DNA from: Dethiobacter alkaliphilus
GTDB taxonomy: Bacteria; Bacillota; Dethiobacteria; DTU022; UBA8154
DNA: 64,000 nucleotides
Assembly (NCBI GenBank): GCA_016841605.1
Contig: JAENYV010000014.1
Span: 1 to 64,000, forward strand
Reading direction: 5' to 3'
The translations under genes and the position numbers were made by a program. Positions 18,611 to 25,453 of this stretch are shown in pieces. The first letter of the stretch is position 1; each line of letters starts with the position of its first letter. The notes beneath the pieces are model-generated. The model saw nothing but the letters and a program-made list of their open reading frames with translations. It ran no database searches and was not told the origin of the DNA.

Positions 18611-19639
18611 TTACAAAGCAGGGGCTAAATTTTTGCCGGTAATAAGAGTTCCCGCGAGGCGGTCCAGGTATTCCAGGGCTAAACCGGTTCCCTTGGCCAC
18701 ACTCCCGATTGGATCATCAGCCAAGTATGCGGGGACACCCGTCTCCCGGGCAATAAGTTTATATAGCCCGTCCAGCATGGACCCACCGCCCGTCAGTATA
18801 ATACCCTTTTCAATAATATCACCGGCCAGCTCCGGAGGAGTTTTTTCTAAAACCTGGCGGACACCCTGCACAATAATCCATAGCGTCTCATTGATAGCAT
18901 CGACTATCTGTTCAGTACAAACCTCCATGGAACGAGGCAGTCCATTAACCAGATCGCGGCCACGAATCTCAACCTTGAGAGAACGGTTCCCGTGAAAAGC
19001 GGAGCCGATTTCAATTTTCAGTCTCTCGGCAGAACGCTCGCCGATCAGGAGATTATGTTCCTTTTTGATGTAGCGGACAATGGCTTCATCGAACTTGTCT
19101 CCGCCGACACGCACACTGCAGGACACTACAGTCTCTCCCATAGATATTACAGCGATATCCGTAGTACCTCCCCCGATATCAACGACCATGCTTCCGCTGG
19201 GCTGAAAGATATCCAGACCTGCTCCCAAAGCTGCCGCACGAGGCTCCTCAATGAGATAGGCTTCTCTGGCACCTGTACGGGTAACAGCTTCTATAACCGC
19301 TTTTTTCTCCACAGCAGTGGTCTCAACGGGAATACAGACCACAATACGGGGTTTAAAAATACGCCGTTTTTTGCAGACTTGATAAATAAAGTGCTTGAGC
19401 ATAACTTCCGTGACATCGAAGTCGGCAATGACCCCTTCACGCAGGGGGCGAATCGCGATAATATTTCCCGGTGTGCGTCCCAGCATCTTCTGGGCAAGCT
19501 CTCCTACGGCCAGAACTTTTCTTTCCCGGTGATCAATAGCTACTACTGAAGGTTCGTTCAGCACAATCCCTTTCCCTTTAAGATAGACAAGTATGGTCGC
19601 GGTACCAAGATCGATCCCCATATCTGCTGACCAGGCCAT
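18611..19639 (-). CDS. mbl: MreB/Mbl actin-like cell-shape protein
   Basis: This 342-residue protein has all actin-fold phosphate and adenosine motifs: DLGTATILVYLKGKG, VVDIGGGTTDIAVIS, EEPRAAALGAGL and ILTGGGSML. It forms membrane-bound filaments that guide lateral wall synthesis. The gene follows spoIIID in the same direction, as mbl does in Bacillus subtilis, so mbl is the preferred name over mreB. Downstream are wall-polymer genes, consistent with a shared envelope role. Confidence 0.92.
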   Translation of the reverse strand: MAWSADMGIDLGTATILVYLKGKGIVLNEPSVVAIDHRERKVLAVGELAQKMLGRTPGNIIAIRPLREGVIADFDVTEVMLKHFIYQVCKKRRIFKPRIVVCIPVETTAVEKKAVIEAVTRTGAREAYLIEEPRAAALGAGLDIFQPSGSMVVDIGGGTTDIAVISMGETVVSCSVRVGGDKFDEAIVRYIKKEHNLLIGERSAERLKIEIGSAFHGNRSLKVEIRGRDLVNGLPRSMEVCTEQIVDAINETLWIIVQGVRQVLEKTPPELAGDIIEKGIILTGGGSMLDGLYKLIARETGVPAYLADDPIGSVAKGTGLALEYLDRLAGTLITGKNLAPAL

Positions 19640-19770: not shown

Positions 19771-20070
19771 TTATTTGCTTTCGGAAACCAAACCGTCAAT
19801 GACAATGTCGCAATTATCCTCGCGCAAAGAATTGTATTTAAGACGGGTAGCTTCTCCTCCCCGTAAATGACGCTCCGCCTTATTTTTTTCCAGCACGGTA
19901 CGAACATCCTGGGCGAGATTTCCATTAATCTGAGGAAGACGCTCTGTAACATCCTTGTGCACGGTGCTTTTACTGACACCAAATATCTGGGCCGTCTGTC
20001 TGACCGTATAACCGGTATCTAAAATATAATTTGCAACATCTATTACTCTTTGTAAAATGTAATCCTGCAT
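19771..20070 (-). CDS. spoIIID: Sporulation regulator SpoIIID
   Basis: The protein of 99 residues has the helix-turn-helix TVRQTAQIFGVSKSTVHKDV followed by TERLPQIN and the diagnostic RHLRGGEATRLKY. SpoIIID is the mother-cell DNA-binding protein acting with sigma-E. ATG at 20070 is chosen because AAGGGGG lies 8 bases upstream and family members start at this point; an ATG 24 bases earlier is also in frame. It lies between spoIIQ-like and mbl. Confidence 0.95.
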   Translation of the reverse strand: MQDYILQRVIDVANYILDTGYTVRQTAQIFGVSKSTVHKDVTERLPQINGNLAQDVRTVLEKNKAERHLRGGEATRLKYNSLREDNCDIVIDGLVSESK

Positions 20071-20101
20071 GGGGCCGCCCCCTTTAGCTGGCATTAATAA
20101 A

Positions 20102-20130
20102 TTTATATGTGACGCACCCGGTATTAATTC
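20102..20130 (-). promoter_or_regulatory. Possible sigma-E-type promoter of spoIIID
   Basis: The minus strand has GAATTAA (20130-20124), 14 bases, then CATATAAA (20109-20102). The -10 resembles the sigma-E consensus CATACAnT and the spacing is right; the -35 matches only in part. The -35 overlaps the stop codon of the spoIIQ-like gene. SpoIIID is expected to be sigma-E controlled. Confidence 0.4.
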
Positions 20131-21503
20131 CTTTCGTTAATGAATAGAAGGGGATCTATGTACTGGTTATCCCTTCGTAATTCCAGATAGAGAAGAGGAT
20201 TTTCTCCGTCAAAAGCAGAATACATTCCTGCCTTTTCTTCCTTTTCGCCTTTACCGACAGCGCCGGTCCCGGGCTGAGCACCGAATGCCGCCAGTATTTC
20301 CCTATCCGTCTCCGGATTTATTTCTTCCCATTGGTCATCTTCAATGAGAAATTTTCTTACTTCCCCATCTTCAAAACCGCTCATAACCGTTTGAAAAGGC
20401 AGCATCCCGGAGGCGTAGACCGCTTTCCCCGAATCCGGAACGGAATTTAACGGATTACTGTCCGAGGTGTTCACATTTGCAGCATCATTCTTATCACCGG
20501 AAAAGCCTGCGCTTGTCATGTTTCTGGCCGAGGGAGCAGAGGCAAGAAGGCCAATATTTTCCCCCCTGTTGACCTGTTCTCCTTCTTTGACCCAGATTTC
20601 ACGGAGATTCCCATACAAAGTTCTGTACCCGTCCTCATGCTCCAGAATAACAAAGCATCCGAAAGGAAAGTTTTTCTCACCCGCGGTCACTACGGTACCA
20701 TCCCACAAGGCCGAGACAGAAGCTCCGGGAGTCCCGGCAAGGAGTACTCCCCGGGTACGGTGGTGCAACATCCCGCCCGAAGGCAAAACCTCGCTGTTGT
20801 AATCACCATAAGCCACATAAAGATACCAGTCCGGAAGCGGAGAAGCCGGGGGTAAAGCAGGAGAAACCTCTACAGCTGCATCGGTTGTCGAACCATCACC
20901 AGGGTTAAGCGAAAATTCACCTGTTTCCGGAAACAAGTCCAAACTTTCCGGATTATCTTCACCACTGGAAAGTAAGTCCTGAGAAGAAGATTCAAAGCCT
21001 TCCCCGACAGAATCCGGAGAACTGTCACCCGGCAAATTTCCCGCAGAAGTTTCAGACATGCTACCGGTAACCATATTGGTATCGGTATTGGTATCGGTAT
21101 TGCTATTGATATCAATAGCGACAGCAGATGAATCAGAATCTTCAACAGGTAAGAGGGAGCCGGCTTCTTTTCCCATTGTTACGTCCCCGATCTGATCATC
21201 ACTCTGAACGCCGGTCCAATCCTTATCCATACCGGGAATCTCAGGCGCAGGGATCATGCCCATACGCAAAAAAACAACTGCTAAAAGGACAACAACGGTC
21301 AGCAGATAGAGCCCTCCCAAATAATAGAAGCGGCGGGAAAAAGCCTTCTTTCCTGCAGATACAACGGCAGTTTTTTTTACGTGACGCTTTTCGGTGTTAT
21401 GCCTGTCCCTACCGTTCACATCATTTTTTAAAGATTTCTTCCTCAATAGGCCGACCGTCACATTCCGAAAGGCCTTCCCAAACCCGTTTTGCCAAATTGA
21501 CAT
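20124..21503 (-). CDS. spoIIQ: SpoIIQ-like protein with degenerate LytM (M23) domain
   Basis: The 459-residue protein has a basic N-terminus, one membrane helix (~62-85, YYLGGLYLLTVVVLLAVVFL) and a long Ser/Asp/Asn/Thr-rich linker (~100-225) with NTDTNTDTN repeats. A C-terminal LytM fold follows (VSALWDGTVVTAGEK, CFVILEHEDGYRTLYGNL, VKEGEQVNRGENIGLLAS, LLYLELRRDNQYIDPLLF). The Zn-binding GID and HLHFE motifs are replaced (HLHFE position reads LLYLE), so it should be inactive. About 110 extra residues interrupt the fold. SpoIIQ is the forespore half of the SpoIIQ-SpoIIIAH channel. ATG with GGAGGTGA upstream; a sigma-F-like promoter lies 34 bases upstream. Confidence 0.85.
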   Translation of the reverse strand: MSIWQNGFGKAFRNVTVGLLRKKSLKNDVNGRDRHNTEKRHVKKTAVVSAGKKAFSRRFYYLGGLYLLTVVVLLAVVFLRMGMIPAPEIPGMDKDWTGVQSDDQIGDVTMGKEAGSLLPVEDSDSSAVAIDINSNTDTNTDTNMVTGSMSETSAGNLPGDSSPDSVGEGFESSSQDLLSSGEDNPESLDLFPETGEFSLNPGDGSTTDAAVEVSPALPPASPLPDWYLYVAYGDYNSEVLPSGGMLHHRTRGVLLAGTPGASVSALWDGTVVTAGEKNFPFGCFVILEHEDGYRTLYGNLREIWVKEGEQVNRGENIGLLASAPSARNMTSAGFSGDKNDAANVNTSDSNPLNSVPDSGKAVYASGMLPFQTVMSGFEDGEVRKFLIEDDQWEEINPETDREILAAFGAQPGTGAVGKGEKEEKAGMYSAFDGENPLLYLELRRDNQYIDPLLFINERN

Positions 21504-21536
21504 TAAATTTCACCTCCATACATCTAATAATATGGA

Positions 21537-21566
21537 TAGTATGTCCAACAACAGATAATTTTAAAC
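21537..21566 (-). promoter_or_regulatory. Sigma-F-type promoter of spoIIQ-like gene
   Basis: On the minus strand GTTTA (21566-21562), 15 bases and GGACATACTA (21546-21537) fit the sigma-F pattern (-35 GYATA, -10 GGnnAnAnTR), with one -35 mismatch. The -10 box is complete. spoIIQ is a known sigma-F gene, so position and identity agree. Confidence 0.7.
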
Positions 21567-21653
21567 GAAATTTTGTGGAAAGGCTCCGGGGAAGCTCGAA
21601 CCGTCCCCTGGCACCGCAAACTGCTAATTTTCCTGCATGACAGTAACGATTCG

Positions 21654-21682
21654 TTAATATTCCCATGAGGGAGAACATACAA
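21654..21682 (+). promoter_or_regulatory. Sigma-E-type promoter of spoIID
   Basis: TAATATT (21654-21660), 14 bases and CATACAAT (21675-21682) closely match the sigma-E consensus. The start codon of spoIID is 41 bases downstream. spoIID is a classical sigma-E gene. Confidence 0.85.
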
Positions 21683-21723
21683 TAGGGACAAGGCCGGACA
21701 ATTTCGTCGGGAGGGGAACAACG

Positions 21724-22752
21724 TTGTGGAAACTTCTCTTGTTGTATATCTTGGCGGTTTTTCTATCGCTAATCGTTCTACCTGCTTCTCTGGTGGGGGG
21801 ATGGTGGAGATGGGAAAACGGAATTGATCGAAATAATATAACAGGGCCGCAGGCAGAATTTTTTTCGGCTTTAGAAAAAGAGGAACGAATCTTGAAAATC
21901 TACAATGTGGAAGAAGAAAAAATGATGGAGTTACTTCTGGAGGAATATATCGCCGGAGTAGTCGCGGCAGAGATGCCTGCATCCTTTCACGAAGAAGCCC
22001 TCAAAGCGCAGGCGGTAATCGCCCGGACCTATGCCCTGTCCAAAGCAGGCAAGGACGGAGGAGGATGTTCCGAAAACCCCGGTGCCGACCTGTGTACCTG
22101 CAGCACATGCTGCCAGGCCTGGGAGGATATTCACACAGCAACAAAAAAGTGGCCGGCAGAAGAGGCATCCTTTTACCTGGAACGGATCTTAAATGCCGTA
22201 AACTCCACAAGAGGGATGGTCCTGACGTACCAGGGTGACCTGATCCAGGCGGTCTATCACTCCACCTGCGGCGGGGTAACGGAGACAGCTACGGAAGTCT
22301 GGAGCGGAGAGGAAGAAATACCTTACCTGCAGAACGTGGAGTGCACCTTTTGTCGTCACTCCCCCCATTATACCGGTCAGTTGGAAATGAACCTGACAGC
22401 CTATACCGTGGCACTGGAAAAAGAAGCAGATGTGCTTCCTGTTCTGGGAGAGGGTAATATCCCCTTTCTGGAAGTGGTACGCAAAAGCAGCAGTGGCCGG
22501 AACTTACTTTTAAAAATTGACAGCTCGGACCGCCTTTACAGCGGAGAAGAAATCCGCAATCTTTTGGGACTTCCTTCTACGTTTTTCCGCTGGCAGATAA
22601 ACGGAGACAAAATTGTCTTCTCTACCAGGGGCTACGGTCACGGAGTAGGTCTGTGTCAGTACGGCGCAGACGGGATGGCAAAACAAGGTTATAACTTCCG
22701 TCAAATCCTTGAATTCTATTATCGGGGGACAGAAATACAACTCTTAAATTGA
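21724..22752 (+). CDS. spoIID: Stage II sporulation protein D (peptidoglycan lytic transglycosylase)
   Basis: This 342-residue protein has an N-terminal membrane anchor (KLLLLYILAVFLSLIVLPAS) and the SpoIID domain: EYIAGVVAAEMPASFHEEAL with the catalytic Glu, KAQAVIARTYAL, STCGGVTETA and the C-terminal GHGVGLCQYGADGMAKQGY. SpoIID cleaves glycan strands during engulfment in the mother cell. A Cys-rich insertion (CSENPGADLCTCSTCC) follows the catalytic region. The start is TTG with GGGAGGGG ~10 bases upstream. It is the only plus-strand gene in this cluster, and its stop codon directly abuts the murA stop codon. Confidence 0.93.
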   Translation: MWKLLLLYILAVFLSLIVLPASLVGGWWRWENGIDRNNITGPQAEFFSALEKEERILKIYNVEEEKMMELLLEEYIAGVVAAEMPASFHEEALKAQAVIARTYALSKAGKDGGGCSENPGADLCTCSTCCQAWEDIHTATKKWPAEEASFYLERILNAVNSTRGMVLTYQGDLIQAVYHSTCGGVTETATEVWSGEEEIPYLQNVECTFCRHSPHYTGQLEMNLTAYTVALEKEADVLPVLGEGNIPFLEVVRKSSSGRNLLLKIDSSDRLYSGEEIRNLLGLPSTFFRWQINGDKIVFSTRGYGHGVGLCQYGADGMAKQGYNFRQILEFYYRGTEIQLLN

Positions 22753-24030
22753 TTAATCAGGAAAAATAAAAATGCGCCCGCCCGCAGTGCGAAGCCTTCC
22801 TACAAGGCGGCTGTATCCCCGGCGGATGTGACGCACGCCCCTAATTTCTGTGATCCCCCGCGCCGCCAAACCGGCCAGTATCAGACCGGCTCCACCTCGC
22901 AGGTCCGCGGCGCGCACCACCGTCCCCTGTAAAAACTGTCTGCCGGTAATGATAGCACTTCTTCCTTCAATCCGAATTCGGCCGCCCATACGGACCAACT
23001 CTTCCACGTGGGAAAAACGTTTCTCAAAAACAGTTTCCCTAATAACGCTGGTCCCCCGTGCCAATGTAAGCAGAGCCATAAACTGGGGCTGAAGATCTGT
23101 AGGAAACCCGGGGTAAGGAAACGTCTTAAGTTCCACTGCTTTAGGGCGTCCCCGTGCCCGAACCCGAAGCGCCTTCTCACCAACTGTTTCTACTTCGGCA
23201 CCAACTTCTTTCAGCTTAGCATTGACGGCAGTAAGGTGGCTGGGAATGACATTTTCGATAAGAAGATCACCTCCGGTTACAGCCGCTGCGGCCATAAAAG
23301 TTCCAGCTTCAATACGATCGGGGATAACCCGATAGGGTTTCTCCGGACCGGCACCGTGCAGAGAGCTCACCCCTTCAACTATAATTAGAGAGCTCCCTGC
23401 ACCATGAATCTTGGCTCCCAGGCTCGTAAGAAAATTAGCCAAATCGGCCACTTCCGGTTCGGCAGCAGCGTTTTCGATCCGCGTTGTCCCGGAAGCAAGC
23501 ACTGCAGCCATGAGGATATTTTCCGTGGCTCCCACGCTGGGATAGTCCAGGTAGATATCCGCCCCGTTAAGTTTCGGGGCAACAACATCGATATAGCCGT
23601 CACCCATAGTAAAAGAAGCACCCATGGCCACCAGCCCTTTGAGGTGAAGATCGATCGGGCGCACCCCGATAGCACAACCCCCGGGATGGGAAATTCGCGC
23701 CCTGCCCATACGGGCAAGCAGTGGGCCTGTAACCAAAAAAGAAGCCCGCATACGTCGTACCGGACCGTACGGAGCAGTAAAGGTGATCAGACGCCGGGAA
23801 TCAAGCCAAATTTTCTCACTTCTGTGCTCATGGTTAACCTCCGCCCCCAGGATATGTAAGAGACGGGACATGGTCCGGACATCTTCCAGATCGGGAATTT
23901 CCGTGAGAGCGACTTCTCCGTTTGCCAGGAGAGAAGCTGCCATAATGGGCAGACAAGCATTCTTAGCACCTTTAACCCTAACCTTTCCCATTAGGGGAAT
24001 ACCGCCCTCAATATAAATTCTTCTTGACAA
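22753..24030 (-). CDS. murA: UDP-N-acetylglucosamine 1-carboxyvinyltransferase MurA
   Basis: The 425-residue enzyme has KGAKNACLPIMAA at the N-terminus (the Lys-Asn pair that binds UDP-GlcNAc) and HPGGCAIGVRPIDLHL with the PEP-binding Cys. It makes the first committed step of peptidoglycan synthesis. The start is TTG with GGGGTGA 9 bases upstream. It follows ywmB by 20 bases, as in Bacillus subtilis ywmB-murAA. There is no intergenic space and no terminator between its end and that of spoIID. Confidence 0.95.
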   Translation of the reverse strand: MSRRIYIEGGIPLMGKVRVKGAKNACLPIMAASLLANGEVALTEIPDLEDVRTMSRLLHILGAEVNHEHRSEKIWLDSRRLITFTAPYGPVRRMRASFLVTGPLLARMGRARISHPGGCAIGVRPIDLHLKGLVAMGASFTMGDGYIDVVAPKLNGADIYLDYPSVGATENILMAAVLASGTTRIENAAAEPEVADLANFLTSLGAKIHGAGSSLIIVEGVSSLHGAGPEKPYRVIPDRIEAGTFMAAAAVTGGDLLIENVIPSHLTAVNAKLKEVGAEVETVGEKALRVRARGRPKAVELKTFPYPGFPTDLQPQFMALLTLARGTSVIRETVFEKRFSHVEELVRMGGRIRIEGRSAIITGRQFLQGTVVRAADLRGGAGLILAGLAARGITEIRGVRHIRRGYSRLVGRLRTAGGRIFIFPD

Positions 24031-24050: not shown

Positions 24051-24878
24051 TTAGTACCAACCGGAGATGAGGGGAGTTCCTGCCCAGATAAGAATATTGC
24101 CGGTCAAGTCGTTTTCGCGCAAAGCAATATTTAGATTGAGGCGCTCCTTGCCCGCCTGGAAATAGCTGCCCAGTTCGGGACAGTATCCGGTAACACTGAC
24201 CATTTTTCCGTCGCGGATCCCCTGTCCCTCTGTTCCCCCGATCCCCCGAACAAGAGAATGGGCCAGCTCTTCCATCTCATCAGGCTTCATATTTTCGTCT
24301 ATTTCTCCGGCCAGGGAGAAAGATAGAGTGCTGCCGACCATTCCGGAATCCAGCAAAGCCGGTATTCTGGAAGCCAGCTCCGCCAAACTGTGCGGCTCTT
24401 CTCCACTAACAATCAGGAGAATATGAATTACTTCGCGGCCTTCCTGGTCCAGGGGCTGAAGAAGCAGCTTCATTTTCGCTCCATTGCCGAATTGGCCTTC
24501 CCTTTGAACCGGCAGGTTCTCCCCACCAGCGGCAAGCGCCTTCTTACCCTCGGAAATGGTAACAACAGCCGGCCCCTCATCTGCAACTTTTCCAGATTCG
24601 TCCTGAGCTTCAGGAAGAAAACCGGTCAGCTTAGCAACAAGATCATCGGCCAGTTCCTCTAAATCATGCCGGTCAGAAACTTCACTGCTCTCTTTTTGCT
24701 GCAAAGAAGCCCAGTATTGAAGCTCACCGCCTGTGATCACAGCACCGGCCATTTCCATAACTTCAAAAAGTTGTTGGTAACCACTTTCAACCGCGGGAGA
24801 AGACGTTTCCGGAAGCATAAAAAAAATTCCACCCACAATAAAAAAAAGAATAAAAACAAATAATACCTTTCTACTCAT
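24051..24878 (-). CDS. ywmB: YwmB-like exported protein
   Basis: This 275-residue protein has a single N-terminal signal/anchor (VLFVFILFFIVGGIFFMLP) followed by an alpha/beta extracytoplasmic part. The C-terminal half (MVSVTGYCPELGSYF, ERLNLNIALREN, ILIWAGTPLISGWY) resembles YwmB, a TATA-box-binding-like fold of unknown function found next to murA in spore formers. Position directly upstream of murA supports the call. Confidence 0.8.
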   Translation of the reverse strand: MSRKVLFVFILFFIVGGIFFMLPETSSPAVESGYQQLFEVMEMAGAVITGGELQYWASLQQKESSEVSDRHDLEELADDLVAKLTGFLPEAQDESGKVADEGPAVVTISEGKKALAAGGENLPVQREGQFGNGAKMKLLLQPLDQEGREVIHILLIVSGEEPHSLAELASRIPALLDSGMVGSTLSFSLAGEIDENMKPDEMEELAHSLVRGIGGTEGQGIRDGKMVSVTGYCPELGSYFQAGKERLNLNIALRENDLTGNILIWAGTPLISGWY

Positions 24879-25036
24879 GACAATTTATCCCTTTCCCTTT
24901 TATCCTTATTATTATCGGAGGAAGAAAACATTATACCGGGGGGAAACATATAATATTAGGGGGCAGGAATCGAAGTAAGTTGGTAAGTTGGAAAGTTGGT
25001 AATAAGGATAGGAAGGATGGAAAGGATGGGAGGAAG

Positions 25037-25453
25037 ATGGATCTTAGGGGAGAAGCAAGTATCGTTGCCCAAAAGTATGGCATACCCAGAGAAATTTTTT
25101 TTGGTCTGATTGAGGCGGAATCAAGTTGGAATCCCGGGGCAAGAAACAGCATCGGGGCCACCGGTTTGACCCAGGTGATGCCGTCAACTGCCGAAAAGAT
25201 GGGCTTTAATCCGGCGGAGCTAGCGATAAATCCTCTCATACAACTTGAAGCGGGAGCGCGGTACCTTGGTGAGATGTTCGAACTTTTCCGGGACTGGGAA
25301 AAGGCCCTTGCCGCTTATAACGCCGGGCCGCATAATGTGGAAAAGTACGGCGGAATACCTCCTTTTCCAGAGACCCAGAGCTATATAAAAAAAGTGCTCA
25401 ATTATGCAAAAGAGCACGTAGAAAAACAATTTAAGTCCCCATTCCCCGATTAA
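25037..25453 (+). CDS. Lytic transglycosylase (SLT domain)
   Basis: The protein is ~138 residues and almost all SLT domain: LIEAESSWNPGARNS with the catalytic Glu, GATGLTQVMPSTAEKMGF, and LAAYNAGPHNV. It has no visible signal peptide. ATG at 25037 is preferred because the frame upstream, to a TTG at 24980, encodes low-complexity Gly/Lys/Asp sequence from a GGA-rich tract; GGAGG is only 3 bases from this ATG, so the start is uncertain. It is divergent from ywmB. Small SLT proteins of this kind occur near recR/dnaX in Clostridia. Confidence 0.85.
   Translation: MDLRGEASIVAQKYGIPREIFFGLIEAESSWNPGARNSIGATGLTQVMPSTAEKMGFNPAELAINPLIQLEAGARYLGEMFELFRDWEKALAAYNAGPHNVEKYGGIPPFPETQSYIKKVLNYAKEHVEKQFKSPFPD

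Follow-up and report, generated by a model that had tools for sequence, protein, structure and literature searches.

The 64-kb stretch of the Dethiobacter alkaliphilus genome analyzed here (the window; its 4.07-Mb genome is G000) contains a 220-bp gap (21504-21723) from which spoIID and a gene for an M23/LytM-domain protein, located at the position of spoIIQ, are read in opposite directions. The account that we favor, with a probability of about 0.8, combines an old inversion of spoIID, two separate cell-specific promoters and a later insertion of a REP-like (repetitive extragenic palindromic) element. In the ancestor of family f1, which comprises 23 genomes including G000 and its two congeners (G001 and G002), an inversion limited to spoIID would have converted the collinear order murA-spoIID-M23-spoIIID-mbl into an arrangement with spoIID divergent from M23 and convergent with murA. 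Transcription of the M23 gene would start from a sigma-F type box in the forespore, and that of spoIID from a sigma-E type box in the mother cell. The -35 boxes, probably 10 bp apart originally in this genus, would have reached a distance of 88 bp when the REP-like element entered between them in G000, leaving both boxes intact. The arrangement is a clade-specific variant within a known type of cluster and does not represent a new kind of system.

Direction of spoIID within the family and the phylum

Among the genes of this cluster in the window, spoIID (21724-22752, TTG start; TIGR02870 equivalog, 315.8 bits vs. a cut-off of 234.75) is the only one on the plus strand; mbl (MreB/Mbl family, 18611-19639), spoIIID (19771-20094, TIGR02844), the M23/LytM gene (20124-21503; PF01551 at residues 250-322, preceded by a hydrophobic N-terminal segment as read from the sequence), murA (22753-24030, tail to tail with spoIID) and a DUF1779 gene at the ywmB position (24051-24878) all lie on the minus strand, as the original prediction had described. 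The inversion is not peculiar to this genome: spoIID was inverted in all 14 f1 genomes that could be assessed (those having spoIID with a readable neighbor), whereas the remaining nine could not be scored, several of them also being without spoIIR and spoIVA. The M23 gene is divergent from spoIID in 13 of the 14 (G000-G003, G005, G006, G008, G009, G010, G012, G013, G014 and G018), and G021, whose contig shows only convergent murA and ywmB-position genes beside spoIID, was scored as inverted. An assembly error in G000 would be an alternative explanation of the inverted order, but nothing was found in its favor and the order is identical in 14 f1 assemblies, which makes it hardly credible.

Outside f1, the inversion is rare. 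In families f3 and f5, which belong to the same order as f1, spoIID was collinear in 10/10 genomes with context. Among 80 named loci inspected, 61 showed spoIIID, of which 58 were collinear and three (L063-L065) antiparallel, all three being f1 genomes. In a phylum sample, which partly overlaps the named set, 315 of 398 genomes were positive for spoIID, about 150 places were listed, and 60 loci from 56 families were fetched; 46 of the 47 showing spoIIID were collinear and one (L300) was inverted. These findings indicate one old, family-wide event and a fixed f1 trait, which represents a clade-specific change of direction in a cluster otherwise collinear across the sampled phylum. The family is called Dethiobacter-like because it holds L063, a record titled Dethiobacter sp. 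SURF_39; two further records titled Dethiobacter (L077 and L080, 40-42% identity), which may lie outside f1, are collinear. In Bacillus, spoIID and spoIIQ are not known to be divergently paired; our survey covered the phylum of the window. No description of a divergent spoIID layout with forespore and mother-cell promoters was found in the titles or abstract beginnings of the papers listed by searches in one open library.

Two other rearrangements were observed. In L300 (G097, family f45), spoIID and the adjacent M23 gene have been turned jointly in an independent inversion, which leaves spoIID divergent from spoIIID. In L105/L327, the fetched stretch does not include spoIIID, and murA and spoIID are arranged divergently.

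The genes are the same as those of the clostridial murA-spoIID-spoIIQ-spoIIID-mbl cluster (CD0124-CD0125 in C. difficile), which is collinear, as are nearly all loci surveyed here, whereas spoIID is reversed in f1. In a figure legend of PMC4982068, spoIID and spoIIQ are treated as a single unit. With regard to the M23 protein, the designation spoIIQ-like in the original prediction is appropriate for its position, but the name spoIIQ itself is not supported, as the protein scores far below the cut-off of the Bacillus SpoIIQ equivalog NF053738 (35.9 vs. 250 bits). Its M23/LytM domain, hydrophobic N-terminal segment and gene order (directly before spoIIID) agree with a CD0125-type protein, an assignment based on these three features. 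The zinc-ligand positions are degenerate: in those f1 sequences that extend over them, other residues take the place of the Asp in motif 1 and of the His in the last motif, so that the intact set of an active LytM endopeptidase is missing. C. difficile SpoIIQ differs in this respect (PMC4982068). According to an excerpt of Galperin et al. (PMC3533761), the clostridial spoIIQ position is occupied by non-orthologous LytM proteins. The f1 gene is therefore regarded as spoIIQ-like by position and promoter only.

Predicted promoter boxes for the forespore and the mother cell

The sigma-F consensus consists of a -35 element GYWTA and a -10 element GGNNANAMTW. Upstream of the M23 gene, a box on the minus strand (21537-21566), composed of GTTTA (21566-21562), 15 bp and GGACATACTA (21546-21537), agrees with this consensus at 15/15 positions with a spacing within 14-16 bp, and the M23 start lies 33 bp further; the same 15/15 agreement was found at the M23 side in 9/12 f1 gaps. 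GTTTA-N15-GGACATACTA occurs exactly once in the genome. With two mismatches allowed, there were 19 genome matches, not above the 23 of a reversed control, and the string by itself is therefore no evidence. This lack of excess would fit the idea that the boxes are chance matches and other promoters are used; shuffle tests, conservation and the presence of the same kinds of boxes upstream of sigG, spoIIIA and spoIVA make such a coincidence very improbable. Support for the M23 box comes from its conservation and an independent model trained on the promoters of sigG (400 shuffles, hence a minimal p of 0.0025). In 16/16 f1 genomes having spoIIR, GTCTA-N15 followed by a 10-mer ending in CATACTA is located upstream of the gene just before spoIIR, which we take to be sigG from its N-terminal sequence. 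With this model, the M23 box of the window was recovered at p = 0.0025; 8/12 f1 gaps had p ≤ 0.005, and in G018 the box ranked first (p = 0.045). It had no significant match at the expected place in G003, G005 and G008, yet the box of G008 matches the consensus at 15/15.

Upstream of spoIID, a sigma-E type box on the plus strand (21655-21683) comprises TAATATT (21655-21661), 14 bp and CATACAAT (21676-21683), with the spoIID start 40 bp further. It matches the sigma-E consensus at 15/15 positions and is the only such match on both strands of the 64 kb; in 30 dinucleotide shuffles of this sequence, the average number of matches was 0 for 15/15 and 0.2 for at least 14/15. The corresponding boxes of G001 and G002 match at 14/15. 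Its ATA-containing -35, CATA-type -10 and spacing within 13-15 bp predict use by sigma-E. The training set for this side excluded spoIID. A model built from spoIIIA promoters alone (candidate box in 17/18 genomes) proved too narrow, and spoIVA (16/16) was then added; the combined model detected the spoIID box with p = 0.0025 both in the window and in G001. An identical -35 (TAATATT) precedes spoIVA in 16/16 f1 genomes. Both assignments of the original prediction, sigma-F-like and sigma-E-like, have thus withstood comparison with the boxes of further sporulation genes in these genomes.

The upstream regions of spoIVA (L335-L350) are closely similar across f1 (TAATATTGTCC...CATATAAATAT), and TTGTCC directly after the start of their -35 is a possible SpoIIID site.

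Several observations weigh against the favored account. Promoter use is predicted from sequence rather than from transcripts. G003 and G005 have only a weak sigma-F box, the spoIIIA-only model misses the spoIID box of the window (p = 0.66), and the true spoIID box of G002 ranks only second under the combined model. A sigma-E match of at least 14/15 was present in only 3/13 f1 upstream regions, all within the genus of the window; G005 and G013, which share a genus and have similar boxes, scored 13/15 (p = 0.04) and 12/15 (p = 0.25), respectively, and a search upstream of spoIID in genera g2, g5, g7, g8 and g9 revealed no convincing sigma-E box. Outside the genus of the window, a sigma-E box of spoIID is therefore unproven, and the pairing of the M23 promoter with a sigma-E box is established for one genus only, which narrows the original prediction. 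In addition, boxes of sigma-F and sigma-G are difficult to distinguish. It is conceivable, though improbable, that the M23 promoter is read mostly by sigma-G after engulfment, as CATACTA is similar to the -10 of sigma-G promoters; on the other hand, the G in the M23 box is a feature given for sigma-F in an excerpt of PMC3789822, where the C. difficile counterpart, spoIIQ, is sigma-F-dependent and spoIID sigma-E-dependent. Hence, sigma-F in the forespore and sigma-E in the mother cell is the assignment that we prefer.

GGACAAG, the SpoIIID consensus, lies over the presumed start of spoIID (21686-21692, plus strand) as a weak candidate site, which is present in G000 and G001 and absent in G002. 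It might fit repression of spoIID by SpoIIID as in B. subtilis. The spoIID promoter of B. subtilis also has a sigma-E box and is repressed by SpoIIID, whose footprints overlap both -10 and -35 according to an excerpt of PMC517825, whereas the candidate site here lies at another position and is missing in one congener. In C. difficile, spoIID is not under SpoIIID regulation as far as the excerpt of PMC3789822 reports. No paper on SpoIIID together with GGACAAG was found in one open library.

Spacing of the boxes and the REP-like insertion

The distance between the two -35 boxes is 88 bp in the window and 10 bp in each of G001 and G002. The spacing of about 90 bases in the original prediction is correct as a measurement but not as an inherent feature of the layout, because, when the three gaps are aligned, the window has 78 additional columns, cleanly inserted between both -35 boxes. 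The insertion (about 78 bp, 21570-21647, ends uncertain by a few bases) contains, in minus-strand reading, a REP-like element of the GGGGACGGTTCGAG subfamily and resembles dispersed repeats of its own genome (six further places at E < 0.04). The repeat-like stretch noticed originally between the promoters is real: GGGGACGGTTCNNG has 24 sites in the genome, compared to 0 for reversed controls. Some copies are paired inversely (L018 and L032), and two Y1_Tnp genes (C13:246618-246959 and C33:11745-12065) lie between inverted repeat copies; the element in the gap corresponds to one decayed arm. The inverted GGGGACGGTTCTTG copies around both Y1 genes (G000:C13:246515-247468 and C33:11129-12187) give these loci a RAYT-like (REP-associated tyrosine transposase) appearance.

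Such flanking of Y1 genes by inverted copies is as in REP/RAYT systems (PMC2817692 and PMC3116915, abstract beginnings). Similar to REP elements and REPINs (REP doublets forming hairpins) with their RAYTs, the repeats here are short, dispersed and partly arranged as inverted pairs, and are linked to Y1 genes located between inverted copies; in a REP/RAYT system the transposase would also move the repeats. They differ in their core (GGGGACGGTTC) and in their low copy number (24 sites for the searched pattern). A search of one open library for GGGGACGGTT yielded no study of such repeats recognizable by title. By eye, similar motifs were also recognized in the M23/spoIID spacers of G005, G008 and G010, so that this spacer seems to be open to insertions. 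The inserted repeat can now be distinguished from the adjoining regulatory sequence, and the natural series of 10, 10 and 88 bp offers a way to ask whether promoters of different sporangium cells can share upstream DNA. Most probably, a distance of only 10 bp is tolerated since the sigma-F and sigma-E holoenzymes would act in different cells.

Convergent end with murA and neighboring elements

At the other end of spoIID, its stop codon and that of murA are 0 bp apart in the window, which leaves no room for a terminator. The distance is 17 bp in G002 and 319 bp in G008, and the two genes overlap by 99-126 bp in G003, G005, G012, G013 and G021. Beside spoIID, murA is absent, broken or remote in G001, G006, G009, G014 and G018.

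The tight ends on both sides of spoIID raise the question of whether the layout has been selected as a regulatory unit, in which back-to-back polymerases would exclude each other and antisense RNA from spoIID would lower wall-precursor synthesis in the mother cell. The 10 bp between the -35 boxes in both congeners, the absence of any space before murA here together with its overlap in five f1 relatives, and the retention of the arrangement in every assessable f1 genome are in line with such selection. Conversely, the spacing is variable (10-88 bp within the genus, with gaps of 146-479 bp in f1), the murA neighbor has been lost, broken or displaced in five genomes, and the proposal is drawn from layout, not transcripts, which makes it unlikely. 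Slightly less likely still is a joint version, in which a promoter pair with -35 boxes 10 bp apart would never fire in the same cell and spoIID antisense RNA would lower murA output during engulfment; two polymerases could hardly sit together on such a pair, and separation by cell type would make it workable. An old inversion with two separate promoters and a later insertion is preferred over both.

Some minor features were also observed. In L033, L034, L035, L063 and L064, the SpoIID frame continues antisense to the last 99-126 bp of murA, giving SpoIID an extra C-terminal tail. In L359 (G014), just two short overlapping murA-like stretches (1746-2009) lie between the ywmB-position gene and spoIID, which look like a murA remnant. 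A scan for sigma-70 promoters and terminators scored nothing above shuffles. Upstream of spoIIID, no classic sigma-E consensus was found (best match 10/15), and a conserved -10 of the ACATATAAAT type is located immediately 5' of the gene. A GGAATTAA...ACATATA(A/G)ATTTA block (20095-20140, minus strand), which spans the M23 stop codon and is conserved in the five f1 genomes read, is perhaps the own promoter of spoIIID. Finally, AACATT-N14-CATATAAT (24927-24954, plus strand), a sigma-E-like sequence with one mismatch to the searched pattern, directly precedes a lytic transglycosylase open reading frame (24980-25453) divergent from the ywmB-position gene and is possibly a second mother-cell promoter.
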